Shown: in pieces, positions 33,891-42,478 of the stretch
Position numbering within the stretch: the stretch's first letter is position 1
Layout of the letters: the number at the start of each line of letters is the position of its first letter
Assembly (NCBI RefSeq): GCF_003013715.1
Contig: NC_072816.1
Span: 1 to 64,000, forward strand
Source of the DNA: Candidozyma auris
Lineage: Eukaryota; Ascomycota; Pichiomycetes; Serinales; Metschnikowiaceae
Length of the DNA: 64,000 nt
Reading direction: 5' to 3'
The notes under the pieces: model-generated
Told to the model about the DNA's origin: nothing
Seen by the model: the letters and a program-made list of their open reading frames with translations, nothing else
Databases searched by the model: none
Position numbers and translations under genes: made by a program

Positions 33891-35704
33891 TTAAAGCTTC
33901 TCGTTCAACAACCGCTCAAACAGCACCTTGTCGTACTTGACGTACTTGGCCTTATTCTTGGTGAAATCGCCGCTTCCGTACTTATCATACAACTTGTTGT
34001 AGGCATTGATGATGAGCTTTTTGATCTCGCTTGAAAGGTAGTTCCGCAAATCCTTCTCTTGAATGTTGAATTTCTCGTAGTTCTTGAGCGCCTCTTCAAA
34101 CAGCTCGTTGAAGTTCTTGAAAAGCTCCTTCACCTGCTCTCTTTCCTTGTTGCTGTTTTGTCCACCATGCTGAGCATTGGTGGTAGTAATCTGCGTCATG
34201 TCGCGGATGATGATGTACGAGGCGTAATTCCAGTCATCCAAGAAGAGTTTGAGGAACCTGTTTTTCAAGCGCTGAAGCCTTTCCTGGCCAACGACTCGGA
34301 GTTTCTTGTAGAGACCCTCCAGGCGGTTGACGATAGTTTCGATCATGACAATGTTCTTTACGAGCAAAAACCCTTGCGTCAGCTTTCGAAGGCCATTATC
34401 GCCAGACTGCTCCTTCAACCGGATTTCGATATTCACCATGAGCTCATCGATGAGGTCCAGAATATATGAAGAGATTAGGAACGCTTTTCTGTTGGTAGCA
34501 TCACCTTCAGCTCCGGGGATCACAGAGGTGTAAACTGAAATAAATTGCAAAGGGGGCTTCACATCAAGCCAGCTGCCAAGCTTCATGTCCTCCATTAAAA
34601 GCGATACAGAGTCGTACTCGGCGATCCTTCGGATTCTCGATAACACTTCCACAACAACTTCAGGGATACTTTGGTCTGTACACTTCTCCAAAGCTAGCAC
34701 TCTGCTCTCCACGTACCTGACCCACTCGCTTAGCAAGCCCTGGGCAATATTGAGAAGACGAGTGTACTCACTGAAAGCGACTTTACTCACCCCCAAGTTG
34801 CAATTCACAACCTTACCCAAATGGTCATCGAGGATAGCAAGATTGTCCAATACGTCCAAAATCACGAGATCCTGGCCTGTTACGCCGTTCAGCTCCAAAA
34901 AATTACAGTATAAGCCAAGGATCTTGGCAACTCGGTTGTCCAAATACTGAGCCACTGCATTTCTCGCAACCGGCGTGTCCAGCACCAGTAGCTCTGTGCT
35001 GACCTGGTAGAGAGCACTTGCAGCTTTGTTCAACTCATCCACATATTGGGCCACACCGTTGCTGCCTCTTTCATAAGGCATGTTGGCGGCACGTTTCTGA
35101 AATTGCATGCCTCCTCGAATGGAGCCATCTTTACAGTCAATTTTCTTGCAAGGGCCTTCTCCATCGCCTCATGAGCCATACGTAAATTACCTTTGTTGGA
35201 GAAAAATGCAAGCACGGCCACAATGTCGGCCTGTTTGGCAACTGCGCCTCCATCAAGGTCAATTGACAGCACTAGTTTCGTAAAATGACTAACGACATTG
35301 ATCTCTGCCTTGTCCACTACATTGGCAAACGTTACCACCACATTGTCAAATTGGTGGATTTCTTTCTTCATTTCTCTGGACAAGTCGTACGACTCCAGCA
35401 AACACTGTAGATACTTGACTGTGCCCACGGTTTCTATGGGACTCGTGAGAAGCCTCTGGGATTCAGCAGCACGACCAGCATACAAAGAAACATCTTTTAA
35501 AAGCTGCAATCCCTCATCAACAGAGCGCTTCTTCGACGTAAGCGCATTGAACTCACTCAATACGGGCTTGATTGTTGTTGAGGCGGAGGACGTTTTTGTG
35601 GAGATGGTGTGAAGTCTCTTTGTGATATCGTTGAAAAGCTCCTTAGACCGCGAGAGATTTTGTGTGAGTACAGCCACGTCGGCTTCGTCAATGTCAACAT
35701 TCAT
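33891..35704 (-). CDS. EXO70: Exocyst subunit Exo70 (one frame change)
   Basis: Exocyst component that binds PI(4,5)P2 and Rho3/Cdc42 and tethers secretory vesicles at the bud. The start is the ATG at 35704 (MNVDIDEADVAVLTQNLSRS). The protein is helical throughout; the N-terminal coiled coil is followed by the Exo70 rods, with C-terminal family blocks NYASYIIIRDMTQITTTNA, LRNYLSSEIKKLIINAYNKL and YGSGDFTKNKAKYVKYD. The frame changes at about 35107, between KMAPFEE and MQFQKRAANMPYERG; an extra G in GAGGAGGCATG joins the frames. About 604 codons in total, near the yeast 623. Essential in S. cerevisiae, so a sequence error is likely. Confidence 0.9.
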
Positions 35705-36335: not shown

Positions 36336-38834
36336 ATGTTAGAGCCAATTCCCGTATTTCGTGACTCTGCTGAGGATTTGAGAGACTTCTTCGTTGATTT
36401 GGAGAACTCTCTTATCAAAATCAGAAAGGAGAGAAGTACAAGGAAACAGTACAAGTTCCCGACCACTAATGGAGAAGCGGTGGTTGATTCATGGAAGTTC
36501 AACGAATTCGCCTATGGTACTGATATAGAGCTTCCCAGTCAAGCTAGAGGCTTGTTCACGCGAGATGGCAAGATCATTGCAAGAGGCTACGATAAATTCT
36601 TCAATGTGGGAGAGGTTGAAAAATCTAAGCTTGAACACCTCCAGAAACTAAAAGGGCCCTTTGCGCTAACCATGAAGGAAAATGGGTGCATTGTATTCCT
36701 CTCCGGTCTTGAAGACGGAACGCTTGTCGTTTGCTCAAAACATGTGACAGGAGAGCCAGTCATAGAGAGTGATGGTAAAGGCTCTAGGCACTACGAAAGG
36801 GCCAAGAAAACCGTCTATGAGCATCTAGAGAAAGCAGGGAAACTTGCCGAAGAATTGGCCACCTTCTTGTACAAACACAACATCACAGCAGTCGCTGAAC
36901 TTTGCGACGATGATTTCGAAGAGCATATTATAGAGTATCCTAAAGAGTTGGCAGGGCTTTACTTACACGGTATCAACGCCAACACCATCCAGTTTCATTC
37001 TTACCCAATGAAGAATGTGTACGCTGTCGCAGACTACTTTGGGTTCAAGAGGGTGTACTATGAGCAGTATGACTCGTTTGACACCCTTTGGCTGTTTCTT
37101 GAAGAGAAGAGTAAGACGGGTATCTTTCAAGGAAGAGAGATCGAAGGATTTGTCATTCGAGCCAAAGATAAGGAAGACGATGACTTTTTCTTCAAGTATA
37201 AATTTGAAGAGCCCTATGCGTTATATCGTACATTTAGAGAGGTTACCAAGGACCTCATCACCAAGAGGAGGGCCAAGGTACAACTCATTCTTGAGCAAAG
37301 AAAACATGCCAGAATTGTCCAAGCGTATCTTGACTTCGTCGAAAAGTTATTTTCGGAGCAGCCTGAATTAGCAGAACAGTATCTCGAAGAGAAGGGTATT
37401 ATCAAAGTTAGAAAAATGTTTCTCAAGGATATTGGTCTTGATCAGCAAGATGGTATGGGATTGGTTGCCTTGAACGAGAGCGAAAAGCTCACTAAACGAT
37501 TCAATGAATTTTTTGAAGAAGTGAAATTCAGGTACATCTTATTTCCGATTGCCGTTGTTGGCTGTGGTAAGACCACCGTCTTCAGAACCCTTGCTAACTT
37601 ATTTCCCAAATGGCAACACTTCCAAAACGACAATTACAGTGCTCCAAAAGAGTTTAGAAACTCGTGCGTGAAGTCTCTTGCCGACCTGCCACTATTACTC
37701 CTCGACAGAAACAACAGTCTGAGAAAAGAGAGACAAAGTTTAATAGATGACATCTTCCAGATGCGCTGTAATGTGCTCGTTCCTAATGTGGGTCTACGCT
37801 TCGTGGGAATCAATCTCACCGCATGCGATGACAAAGAGAAGTTTTCGAAGGTAATAAGAGAACGTATCGAGGCTCGTGGTGACAATCATCAATGCGTCAA
37901 CGCCAAAACAGAGAGACAAAAGACGGAAAGAATCATCCTCTCTATGGAGGCGCGTCTTCAACCACCTACGCTTGTTGCTTCTGCACCAAAGAATAAGGTC
38001 GTCAAAGGCGAAGATCTTGAATCTCCAGATGACCTGTTTTACTCAATGATAAATTTCGACATCACCAAACTGTCATCTTTGGAAATCGCCAAGGAAATCT
38101 GGGCATATCTATCACAGCTTCAGCAGTTTAATGATGAGCGTGATCCTACAGAGGAGGAATGGCAAAGAGCATACCAAGAAGCCCTTGACTATAAGCCAAC
38201 CTTCAAAAAAGTGGTTTCTTCCAAGAACTTAGGTGACAAGAGACCAGAGTATTATGGCGTTCGAATAGAAGACGTGAGCGGGTTGATTGATGGAGTGAGT
38301 ACTAAACTTGGTGAGCAAAAGATGTGGCAGTCCATGAGAGCAAATGACAGAGTTCAAAGAGAGCTCCATGTAACCATTGGCCACAAGAACAGCATTTATG
38401 CGTTTCCTTCGCTAAAAGATAAGTGGAATGAGTTGGCCCGCAGATTCGCCATGCAAGTTGCAAAGAAAGAGTCTAAAGAGGACAAATTTGTTCCAGTCAA
38501 GTTCTTCTGCGACGTGCATGTGAAGAAGTTGGTAGTGTTCGACAACAAACTAGTGACTTTATCAGTTCAAATACCTCAGACATACAAGAAGGAGGGGGAG
38601 AACATCATCCTTCAAAACCCAGCTCTAGAGCCGCTAAACGAGCACCTTCATATCACTGTGGGCACCGTCTCTTCTTCGGTAAGTAATGCAGACCTGAACG
38701 TCTTGCTTCATGAGTTACTGAAAAAATACGGTGACGTCTTAGCGGACGGAGAGTATCCTCTTAAAGAGACAATCGCCAGAGTATATTCGTTTGACAGGCT
38801 TCTAGAGAAACAGCAGGTATTTATTTTTTTTTAG
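36336..38834 (+). CDS. TRL1: tRNA ligase (ligase, kinase and cyclic phosphodiesterase)
   Basis: Three-domain enzyme that seals tRNA exons after intron removal and the HAC1 mRNA halves in the unfolded protein response. The ATG at 36336 is used; an upstream in-frame GTG at 36324 is not needed. Adenylyltransferase motif I KENGCI gives catalytic Lys114, the same number as S. cerevisiae Trl1. Kinase P-loop GCGKTT is at 409-414, followed by DRNN and the RIEARGDNH lid motif. The cyclic phosphodiesterase domain has both HxT signatures, HVTIGH and HITVGT. 832 intact residues versus 827 in yeast. Two hundred bases downstream lies a separate protein resembling its kinase domain. Confidence 0.95.
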   Translation: MLEPIPVFRDSAEDLRDFFVDLENSLIKIRKERSTRKQYKFPTTNGEAVVDSWKFNEFAYGTDIELPSQARGLFTRDGKIIARGYDKFFNVGEVEKSKLEHLQKLKGPFALTMKENGCIVFLSGLEDGTLVVCSKHVTGEPVIESDGKGSRHYERAKKTVYEHLEKAGKLAEELATFLYKHNITAVAELCDDDFEEHIIEYPKELAGLYLHGINANTIQFHSYPMKNVYAVADYFGFKRVYYEQYDSFDTLWLFLEEKSKTGIFQGREIEGFVIRAKDKEDDDFFFKYKFEEPYALYRTFREVTKDLITKRRAKVQLILEQRKHARIVQAYLDFVEKLFSEQPELAEQYLEEKGIIKVRKMFLKDIGLDQQDGMGLVALNESEKLTKRFNEFFEEVKFRYILFPIAVVGCGKTTVFRTLANLFPKWQHFQNDNYSAPKEFRNSCVKSLADLPLLLLDRNNSLRKERQSLIDDIFQMRCNVLVPNVGLRFVGINLTACDDKEKFSKVIRERIEARGDNHQCVNAKTERQKTERIILSMEARLQPPTLVASAPKNKVVKGEDLESPDDLFYSMINFDITKLSSLEIAKEIWAYLSQLQQFNDERDPTEEEWQRAYQEALDYKPTFKKVVSSKNLGDKRPEYYGVRIEDVSGLIDGVSTKLGEQKMWQSMRANDRVQRELHVTIGHKNSIYAFPSLKDKWNELARRFAMQVAKKESKEDKFVPVKFFCDVHVKKLVVFDNKLVTLSVQIPQTYKKEGENIILQNPALEPLNEHLHITVGTVSSSVSNADLNVLLHELLKKYGDVLADGEYPLKETIARVYSFDRLLEKQQVFIFF

Positions 38835-39035
38835 TTACACTTTCTGATCCCACGTTCACATGGCCTAGTGAAGTCAGAATATACAAAATGCATGGAGTAA
38901 TTCTATTTTATGTGGATCAAGCAGTATAGCACATTAATTCTTCTCCACAATATTTACACTTTGCATGCAAATTGCGCACCTCAAGCCATAAGTGAAAAAT
39001 AAACTTACACGAACAAAAGACTACATCTTAAGGCG

Positions 39036-39752
39036 ATGTCGATACGTGTGCTTTCGGAGCCGTGGTTAATCATGCCGGTTTCGGTGATTGGGTGTGGCAA
39101 GCTGAGTCTCTTTAGGGCACTCAAGCTGCTCTACCCACAATTTGCTCATATAGAAAGCGATCGCCTGGCTAACAAGAGGGACTTTTACAAGAGCCTTAAA
39201 GATGCATTTAAGGATCATCTGGTCGTTCTTGCAGATAGAAACAATCACATGAAGCAACACAGAAGGGAGATATTCGAGCTATTCGAAGAGGACTTTGTAA
39301 ATATTCTCGTGGTGAATTTTGTGGATCCCAGTGTCGACAAGGAAACAGTGAAAAACACCGCGTTTAAAAGAATCAAAGCAAGAGGCAAAAACCACCCAAC
39401 AATTGACGGACACGATACTCGAAAGGTCAAGATGATTTTGGGCAAATTCATGAAAGATTTTACTCCGTTTGATATCGATGAGGCCACGACGTCCAATCAC
39501 GTATGCGAACTTGATCTTGACATGACGGAGGGGTTGCTTCCTACCACTATGGAGATGTTGTCGTGTCTCCATGAGCACCTTTTCTTAGAGATCCCGGACG
39601 AAAAAGAGGTATTTCGGACTTTGATGAGAGGGATGGAGTACAGAGTACCAAATAAGGAAAAGAAGTTTCTTCAGCTTAAGGGAAAGTCGCAGGATTCACA
39701 TAAGAATATCCGGCAGGGGAGTTCTAAGCGTCAAAACAACCGCAGTGGCTAG
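39036..39752 (+). CDS. Free-standing Trl1-kinase-like protein
   Basis: 238-residue protein resembling only the central polynucleotide kinase domain of Trl1. Its P-loop is encoded GCGK-CTG-AGT; with CTG as serine this is GCGKSS (residues 19-24), aligned with GCGKTT of Trl1. Over the 25 residues from that glycine, 11 are identical to the neighbouring Trl1. It also keeps LADRNN (Trl1 LLDRNN) and RIKARGKNHPTID (Trl1 RIEARGDNHQCVN), so all kinase motifs visible in Trl1 are present. The ligase motif KxNG and both HxT motifs are absent. The last 30 residues are basic (KKFLQLKGKSQDS onward), as in nucleic-acid-binding tails. It lies 201 bases after TRL1 in the same direction, so a partial tandem duplication is likely. 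RNA 5'-OH kinase activity is inferred. Confidence 0.7.
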   Translation: MSIRVLSEPWLIMPVSVIGCGKLSLFRALKLLYPQFAHIESDRLANKRDFYKSLKDAFKDHLVVLADRNNHMKQHRREIFELFEEDFVNILVVNFVDPSVDKETVKNTAFKRIKARGKNHPTIDGHDTRKVKMILGKFMKDFTPFDIDEATTSNHVCELDLDMTEGLLPTTMEMLSCLHEHLFLEIPDEKEVFRTLMRGMEYRVPNKEKKFLQLKGKSQDSHKNIRQGSSKRQNNRSG

Positions 39753-41111
39753 GCAAAGTTCGAGAGGAAGCGGTCGCAAGTGGCACATAGCCAGTCAATT
39801 AGGTCAGGTACTTGTGTCGTCAAGGGTAGGTCTCGCTAGTCACGATTCTGGGATGATACCGTTGAGGATTTCAGCTGTGGACTTGCAATGAAATGGACAT
39901 TTCGTACGTGAACGTAACTCATCAGCGGTTCGTACCACGTCGCGTTGCACTTTGAGAAACTATTTCTACAATGTGATGGTAGATTCAATTCACCCTGAGC
40001 AAAATTATGAGCACAAGATCGGTACATGGGGTTTGTGTGTTTTAGATCTGGGATTATGAGTATTTATAGATGATGATGATTTTGGCATGACAGGCTTTTA
40101 TACGGGAAATGAAGTAGACATTCATAGCAGCCATGCATGCATCGAAATGCCCCATTGTAAGTTAAGTCTAGCTCATAAACGTTTAACTGCTTGGCTGATA
40201 TCACCAGGCCGGAGTTTACAGAAGACTTGAAGTTTCAGAGATTGGCAAAGAGTGCTCAAGAAGGTAAACTCTGCGGTACCAGCACCCACCAATGTACACT
40301 TACATTGTTAATCTACAGCAAGGAGAGTATATTGGGAATTTCGCCCCAAACATCTTAACATGCAATTTCAAAACGAAAATTCACCCACTTGTGTAAATTT
40401 CACCTTAGTCAGACCAGCTAGTTTAGTGTACCCCTGGCTCGTATATTCGCATTTTGAGCCTCTAGCACAGCTCAATTCAGCCCAAAAGATTCTCCAGCCA
40501 GGCCCTACTCCAGAGGATAATTAAGTATAAGAATAACCCCGGCAACCTCAATTTCTTCTAAAGACTCTCTTCTACTACAGCCCTTTCGATTCCCGGGCAG
40601 CTCGGCGTCACGGCCTCGGAGTTATCCCCACAATACCGGGCAAGCAGTGACCATCTGAGACCAATAGGGACAGAGCGAAAAAAAGTGGCCTTTGACACCA
40701 AAAAGCAAAAAACTGCCCAGAATTCTGAAGAAGCAAGGAACAATCCATACAGTTATCGCCCGCCCATCGAAAGCTTCTCCATCCAGTCCACATTCTTCTG
40801 TTACTTTGTCGCAGCGTCCAATTGGTGCTCGTATTTGTCGCTGCCTCGGTTGCAAAACCCTCGAGTGCCGAAAAAGCAACGGAAGCAAGCCCAACAAAAT
40901 TTGAAACAAGGCATACGGGCAATACCAATCACGTCCAGAACTCTCAGTGATCAACTAACATAGATCCAAAAACTTTCTTCATTTCCCACTGCAACCTCTG
41001 CCATCCTCGCCTGTCCCAACAAAAATTTTCCACCCACCCCAGATTCTGTGCGAAATCTTCCATCCGCCCAAATCCACTTTTCCACGTCAACTTCTTTCTC
41101 CAAGTCCCTTG
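39753..41111. other. Intergenic upstream of CAB1
   Basis: 1.36 kb without a convincing gene. Overlapping frames on both strands at 40560-40960 cancel each other out; a 92-codon + frame (40685) has no family features. I see no RNA gene or repeat. Confidence 0.4.
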
Positions 41112-42478
41112 ATGGTCAAGCAGCTCCTCGTCGACAACATAGACTTCGACTCGGTGCCCGCAGGCACCATCAAAATTGACTGTCTGGGCGCGTACATCGC
41201 CAATGACCATTTAATCCGGGGCCAGTATGGGCTTACTCAGAGCTCGCTGCCGCTGCCGCTGGAACTGAGTGAAAGTGAGTCTGAGGAAGAAAGTGGGCCA
41301 CTGGCGTCGACACTGGCTGTGCGTTTGGCGCAGCAAATGGTCACTTGTCCAAGCACAGACTCGGTGAACGCTCAGAACATTGCGTTGCCTCAGCATAACT
41401 CAGACATCATCCACATGAGCGTGGATATCGGGGGGACCTTGACCAAACTCGTGTATTTTACGTCGTCGTCGCTGGACGTGGACGACCCACTGAACCTGGG
41501 AGGAAGTTGCACTTTCAGGATTTCCAGACGGGCAATTTCGAAAAGGAAGCCCTCTCGCATATGATCCAGCTCATTCGCAAGTCCATCATCAACAAGCTGA
41601 ACCCGCCAATCACGTATGTCATGGCCACAGGAGGCGGTGCTCATAAATTTTGCAAGTTGATGGTGCTGGTTTTTAAGACTCATCGCTTTCCTATTCAGAT
41701 TGTCCGTAAAGACGAGATGGAGTGCCTCATCAAGGGCCTCGACTGGCTCATCACCAAGATCCCCAACGAGATCTTCACCTACGATCTCACCGCCAACCAA
41801 ATCAAATTCATCACTAGCCCTTATACTACGGAGGACCAAATATACCCGTATTTGCTCGTGAACATTGGCTCTGGTGTTTCCATGGTGAAAGTCACTGGCC
41901 CCGGTCCCCACGGCTTTGAGCGTATTGGAGGTTCGTCTCTTGGCGGGGGCACTTTGTGGGGGCTCCTCTCGCTCCTTACAGACGCAAAAGATTACACGGA
42001 GATGTTGGAGATGGCCCAACGAGGCAATAACGAGAACATCGATCTTTTGGTTGGTGATATCTACGGCACCAGCTATAACAAAATCGGATTGAAGTCCACC
42101 CACATTGCATCTTCGTTTGCCAAAGTGTTCAAGAAGCTTCGCTTTTCCAAACAGGGAAAGCCGCTCACGCCCAGCGAGAAGTTGGCGCAGTTCAAGCAAG
42201 AGGACATAGCCAGGTCCCTTTTGTACCTGATTTCCAACAACATAGGTCAGATTGCGTACTTGCAAGCGCTTCGGTTCGATCTCAAGCGTATTTATTTTGG
42301 AGGCAGTTACATCCTGGGGCACATGCAAACTATCCACACATTGAGTTACGCTGTGAATTTCTGGTCCAAGGGCGACATGAAGTCGTATTTTCTTCGGCAC
42401 GAAGGATACTTGGGCAGTGTTGGTGCATTTATGATGGGCCCTAACGGTGATGTTCACAACGGGTGCTCTAAGCATTGA
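41112..42478 (+). CDS. CAB1: Pantothenate kinase, Cab1-like (one frame change)
   Basis: Eukaryotic type II pantothenate kinase, first step of coenzyme A synthesis. Motifs: phosphate-binding SVDIGGTLTKLVYF, then MATGGGAHKF, LLVNIGSGVSMVKV, FERIGGSSLGGGTLWGLLSL and the adenosine motif IYFGGSYILGH. The frame drops by one at about 41507 in GGAGGAAGTTGC; one more A gives GGKLHFQDFQTGNF and joins the parts. About 455 codons; the DIGGT motif starts near residue 105, so the protein carries roughly 80 more N-terminal residues than S. cerevisiae Cab1, including a Ser/Glu run. The start is the first ATG (41112). Essential in yeast, so a sequence error is likely. Confidence 0.9.

Follow-up and report, generated by a model that had tools for sequence, protein, structure and literature searches.

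A separate Trl1-type kinase gene next to an intact TRL1 in Candidozyma auris

In Candidozyma auris, the gene for the trifunctional tRNA ligase Trl1 is followed on the same strand by a second frame that resembles only the kinase part of the ligase, with 201 bp between the TRL1 stop codon and its ATG. Is this frame, here called the small kinase, a gene kept for a purpose of its own, and what could a second kinase do beside an intact TRL1? The question was addressed in a stretch of 64,000 nucleotides (the window: contig NC_072816.1 of assembly GCF_003013715.1, positions 1 to 64,000 of the forward strand). The small kinase is probably a single-domain RNA 5'-OH kinase with an accessory role. It would derive from a Trl1-type kinase together with the start of the adjoining linker, and its likeliest job would lie in RNA decay. 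The two genes are:

36336..38834, plus strand: TRL1, trifunctional tRNA ligase, 832 amino acids, with a ligase domain (LIG, PF09511) at residues 69-294, a kinase domain (KIN, PF08303) at residues 401-543 and a cyclic phosphodiesterase domain (CPD, PF08302) at residues 602-793
39036..39752, plus strand: small kinase (P0001), stand-alone Trl1-type RNA kinase, 238 amino acids in code 12

The presence of a separate Trl1-kinase paralogue next to an intact TRL1 is supported by several searches. The Pfam profile search assigns the small kinase to PF08303 with 99.3 bits (E 3.4e-28, curated cut-off 22.7), solved tRNA-ligase kinase chains are found in the PDB sequence search at E 3e-19, and BLASTP connects it to the neighbouring TRL1 at E 2e-20. 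As the preliminary description of this DNA had stated, the frame encodes 238 residues with the motifs GCGKSS, LADRNN and RIKARGKNH, and, in a count by eye, it is identical to TRL1 at 11 of 25 residues starting with the P-loop glycine. Four of its codons are CTG, read as serine in translation table 12. The same description placed a complete TRL1 directly upstream and considered the ligase and phosphodiesterase parts to be missing from the small protein. Both points hold: Pfam matches LIG, KIN and CPD in TRL1 (265.5, 133.7 and 88.0 bits), and neither PF09511 nor PF08302 in the small kinase. In the genome searched for domain loci (12.25 Mb, seven contigs), PF08303 occurs at two loci, TRL1 and the small kinase, and a protein search gave the same pair; PF09511 and PF08302 were found at one locus each, TRL1 in both cases. 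The Clp1/Grc3 polynucleotide kinase family was not matched among the four Pfam families listed for the small kinase at E <=1, the NCBIfam and PHROGs searches returned chance-level matches only, and the bacterial and mammalian polynucleotide kinases 4gp6 and 1yj5 were not listed in the PDB sequence search at E <=10.

The predicted model of the small kinase likewise has the fold of the Trl1 kinase domain when compared with fungal Trl1 kinase structures. By sequence searches and predicted fold, the Trl1 kinase is thus the P-loop family nearest to the protein, as first suggested. The Trl1 KIN structures 5u32, 6tzx and 6u00 are presumably from Candida albicans. A passage in PMC6592678 gives this species for the structure of Remus 2017. 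In contrast to these domains and to the Trl1-LIG-KIN structure 9r3w, the small kinase stands alone, without LIG and CPD, and carries a basic tail.

The preliminary description went too far in holding that no fungal occurrence of this domain is known outside Trl1. Small fungal kinases with bound GDP have been solved from Lichtheimia corymbifera (PDB entry 9drz, a 165-residue chain whose name does not mention a ligase) and Rhizopus azygosporus (9d8a, a 176-residue chain), and we take the chains to be whole proteins. In Mucorales, a monofunctional RNA ligase is encoded apart from the end-healing enzymes, an arrangement for which our literature search found no paper. The likeness to the Mucorales kinases consists in single-domain fungal kinase chains of the same broad fold. 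When tested, the small kinase was not closer to 9drz and 9d8a than to the Trl1 kinases. Unlike the Mucorales proteins, it is much closer to the Trl1 kinase, and it is additional to an intact TRL1.

Whether the small kinase could still work as an enzyme was judged from its active site, which comprises the following elements:

39090..39107, plus strand: P-loop GCGKSS, residues 19-24, aligned to GCGKTT of Trl1 and in agreement with the pattern G-x-G-K-T/S
39159..39161, plus strand: Asp42, the presumed catalytic aspartate, in a column that is Asp in 119/119 Trl1 kinase domains
39231..39245, plus strand: ADRNN motif, residues 66-70, with D67 invariant in 119/119 Trl1
39261-39263, plus strand: Arg76, invariant in 119/119 Trl1
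39369..39398, plus strand: RIKARGKNHP, residues 112-121, with R112, R116, G117 and H120 kept; a lid-like motif in the terms used for this kinase fold

All Trl1 counts rest on the best 120 of 2223 matches to TRL1 (7996 scored candidates in the protein search). The conservation columns were taken from 119 kinase domains, namely the window TRL1 and 118 of the 120 listed matches, with the near-copies P0002 and P0003 excluded. The small kinase keeps 8 of the 11 invariant columns (G21, K22, D42, D67, R76, R116, G117 and H120) and also R112, which is Arg in 118/119 Trl1. Compared with 25.7% elsewhere, the retention of 8/11 is unlikely to be accidental (binomial p 0.0015). Asp42 occupies a column that reads Asn in chain 6tzx_A and Asp in 6u00_A in the alignments. 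It probably corresponds to D425 of yeast Trl1; the assignment comes from the spacing to the P-loop position G401, given in a passage of PMC5434554, and not from an aligned S. cerevisiae sequence. Passages of PMC6456296 describe yeast Trl1-D425N as kinase-inactive. Overall, conservation is graded as it should be in a protein whose catalytic site was retained during divergence of the remainder, and judged by sequence the small kinase is likely to be enzymatically active.

The C-terminal part bears on descent. Two segments can be distinguished:

39600..39686, plus strand: residues 189-217, a helix and a segment like the beginning of the linker between KIN and CPD of Trl1, according to the hidden Markov model (HMM) alignment and the predicted model
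39687..39749, plus strand: basic C-terminal tail of low predicted order, with predicted local distance difference test (pLDDT) values of 47-54 in ten-residue blocks from residue 211 on

The HMM alignment to Trl1 continues weakly beyond the kinase, enters the KIN-CPD linker and ends at residue 217, and the predicted model aligns with Trl1 structures up to residue 203-207. The linker likeness is modest, as 6/500 shuffled tails reach an equal score. Together, the alignment, the model and the shuffles lend modest support to descent from a fused Trl1. The tail was first described as basic and added. It is basic indeed (residues 204-238 contain 10 K/R and 2 D/E, isoelectric point (pI) 11.2), but it is only partly an addition, since linker-like similarity passes the end of the kinase. 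As a guess, it might bind RNA or act as a nuclear signal.

How old is the second kinase? A recent tandem copy of the TRL1 kinase was considered and ruled out by the low identity of 23.0% to the neighbour (43/187 aligned residues, rank 91 among 119 Trl1s) and by an absent insertion. A full TRL1 duplicate with decayed LIG or CPD was also rejected: a Trl1 profile run on all six frames of 38801-41300 found no remnants, only the kinase-linker stretch of the small frame and one chance-level match. The Trl1 kinases of the Metschnikowiaceae clade carry an insertion of at least about 12 residues within TRL1 residues 518-565, present in 42/42 members of the clade and in 0/78 other Trl1s, which makes it a neat clade marker. 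From the lid histidine to the D565 position there are 46-81 residues in 42/42 members and 33-35 in 78/78 others. The small kinase, with 32, differs from the clade in being without the insertion. The simplest reading of these sequences would be that it split off before the insertion arose. Counting against a split of that age, about 9 residues were lost elsewhere in the small kinase (18 residues versus 24-27 in 120 others; compared with the window TRL1, it is 9 residues shorter between R76 and N94), so that the insertion might have been lost secondarily.

The careful tree, from which the membership of the clade is taken, was built from 103 of 121 rows and from columns with at least 50% occupancy; 18 rows had been removed by hand as presumed near-duplicates that were not each checked. 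It contains 35/42 of the clade members and 67/78 of the others, and the remaining 18 (P0002 included) were assigned as presumed near-copies. The small kinase falls outside the starred (100/95) Metschnikowiaceae clade and no starred set contains it, but according to a warning of the tool such an exclusion can be false for a long branch. Approximately unbiased (AU) tests reject neither a grouping with the Candidozyma-like Trl1 (p 0.139) nor one that takes in the entire clade (p 0.446). Instead of arising by an old tandem duplication, the small kinase could be a Trl1 piece acquired by horizontal transfer or introgression from some yeast that does not belong to the Metschnikowiaceae. Such an origin would explain why the small kinase is free of the insert like all 78 outside Trl1s, and why its 12 most similar Trl1 kinases (among 119, up to 30.4% identity) all lie outside the clade. 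However, the position beside TRL1 indicates tandem duplication, neither grouping with clade sequences is rejected by the AU tests, and the residue losses make a secondary loss of the insert possible. We regard transfer as quite improbable.

If the small kinase is active, its chemistry can be outlined from the Trl1 motifs. The P-loop GCGKSS would bind a nucleoside triphosphate (NTP) and Mg, Asp42 would activate the RNA 5'-OH, and the donor phosphates would be held by the arginines in RIKARGKNH. In this way a 5'-OH end would be converted to a 5'-phosphate. Because the small kinase is without ligase and cyclic phosphodiesterase, the same molecule would not seal the product, which would be released to the 5'-phosphate-dependent exonucleases Xrn1 and Rat1. 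Such a protein would suit decay better than sealing. Its likeliest job would be kinase-mediated decay of 5'-OH fragments, namely excised tRNA introns, HAC1 pieces and no-go-decay fragments. According to passages of PMC6592678 and PMC6456296, the yeast Trl1 kinase readies 5'-OH ends for either of two competing fates, ligation or degradation by Xrn1; no-go-decay fragments also require Trl1, as stated in part of PMC6949252. The C. auris genome has two XRN_N loci, two PF01885 loci, one Smr domain and an Ire1-type RNase domain. A role in decay is tentative, and we would sooner doubt than accept its stronger form, in which an ancient Trl1-kinase paralogue has become a dedicated RNA decay kinase that separates marking for Xrn1 and Rat1 from sealing and has altered its NTP preference through RGKNHP. 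A relaxed or altered GTP preference is possible in view of the changes inside the RGDNHQ motif of Trl1, where the small kinase carries K118 and P121.

Several observations weigh against the reading as an active accessory kinase. Three invariant positions are altered, T414 to Ser24 (a mild change), Q519 to Pro121 and D565 to Thr152, and D516, which is Asp in 110/119 Trl1, is Lys118. The preliminary claim that all visible kinase motifs are kept was therefore slightly too strong, although most catalytic residues are there. From the invariant class downwards, majority residues are matched in 8/11, 6/11, 12/27, 11/44 and 16/93 columns, so that only 6/11 of the columns with 90-99% conservation are kept. 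When the window TRL1, P0012 and P0109 were scored likewise, each had 11/11 invariant positions, and 10/11, 10/12 and 11/12, respectively, in the next class. The small kinase is clearly less constrained than any of these three Trl1 kinases. The tree gives it a very long terminal branch, of 2.99 changes per column, and the AlphaFold input alignment contained 88 Trl1s, which biases the model towards Trl1. Moreover, the intact TRL1 already provides a kinase. Weaker tests point in the same direction. The whole small kinase found no match in a collection of 5.8 billion proteins (E <=0.001, 157 candidates), nor did residues 9-130 in the same collection (E <=10, 26 candidates), and scans of viral and prokaryote contigs gave 13 and 62 pattern matches, none of which was confirmed. 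As the collection returns C. auris TRL1 yet not the C. auris small kinase, the null result is no evidence of absence in relatives. The gene may be uncalled there, missing from the strains concerned or omitted from the collection.

The changes D516 to K, Q519 to P and D565 to T, at invariant or nearly invariant positions, together with the basic tail of high pI, would suit an RNA-binding protein that is non-catalytic or has shifted its donor, either a decoy or regulator covering 5'-OH ends or a user of ATP or another NTP. The P-loop Lys, Asp42, Asp67, Arg76, Arg112, Arg116 and His120 would be needless in a dead protein, and their retention makes this alternative unlikely. An active kinase could also serve repair or splicing, as a booster or back-up that supplies extra 5'-phosphates to the neighbouring TRL1 ligase in tRNA or HAC1 splicing. 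The adjacent position on the same strand is in line with this, and so is the statement in PMC6592678, in the passages available, that yeast Trl1 ligation requires the 5'-phosphate from its own kinase. Yet TRL1 retains 11/11 invariant KIN positions, which leaves no gap to fill, and the three changed invariant positions and the tail suggest a separate job, so that a role in repair or splicing seems doubtful.

A decaying pseudogene or a chance frame is already disfavoured. It would account for the missing match in a collection from which C. auris TRL1 is retrieved, and neighbouring genes have broken frames in the assembly. The synonymous-codon score is weak evidence that does not set the frame apart (0.025, equal to that of TRL1, with one reverse frame at 0.052). 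However, 238 codons have stayed open at about 19-30% identity to relatives, and none of 300 synthetic frames of this length was free of stops after neutral simulation to 30% amino-acid identity (mean 9.2 stops, minimum 2), which argues that the frame was not drifting freely over most of its history. The GC content at the three codon positions (0.50/0.30/0.54) resembles that of TRL1 (0.51/0.30/0.49) and of the window genes (0.50/0.37/0.53), the full codon score of 0.13 falls between the lowest and highest values of 19 window frames with at least 250 codons, and most catalytic residues are retained. Decay or chance is thus very unlikely.

With the accessory kinase as the preferred reading, the locus touches on a point of general interest. 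Passages of PMC6592678, PMC6456296 and PMC6949252 indicate that in budding yeast a single Trl1 kinase domain feeds both ligation and Xrn1 decay. A kinase that occurs naturally apart from an intact neighbouring ligase would make the competition between the two accessible to genetics, and if the decay role is true, one fungus divides repair and decay between two kinases. Text searches of abstracts and passages found no description of an accessory kinase in a Trl1-bearing yeast. Trl1 is discussed as an antifungal target in part of PMC6592678; an approach aimed at its kinase domain might have to reckon with a second kinase.

The neighbouring TRL1 is 99% identical over aligned residues to P0002 and to C. 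auris CJJ09_004888, as fits C. auris or a very near relative in the family Metschnikowiaceae. Its last residues (38800-38834, plus strand) differ from those of P0002 and P0004 in a manner that would suggest a frameshift at the very 3' end. EXO70 (33891-35704, minus strand) is split over two frames, with PF03081 in one of the two, and so is the pantothenate kinase gene (Fumble, PF03630; 41112-42478, plus strand), with a weak piece in the first frame. Both genes are expected to be essential, so assembly indels are likelier than real loss. The split frames, and the indels between two copies of a block on contig C6, suggest that the assembly is indel-prone, and the exact C-terminal end of the small kinase is therefore provisional. 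The C6 block, of at least 9.8 kb, occurs twice, through either a real duplication or an assembly fault, at C6:270500-280400 (L012) and C6:416400-426300 (L013), about 146 kb apart; the copies are 99.5% identical, with 25 indels and 12 mismatches in 9868 columns. The block bears a second copy of PF01885 (TPT1-type tRNA 2'-phosphotransferase).
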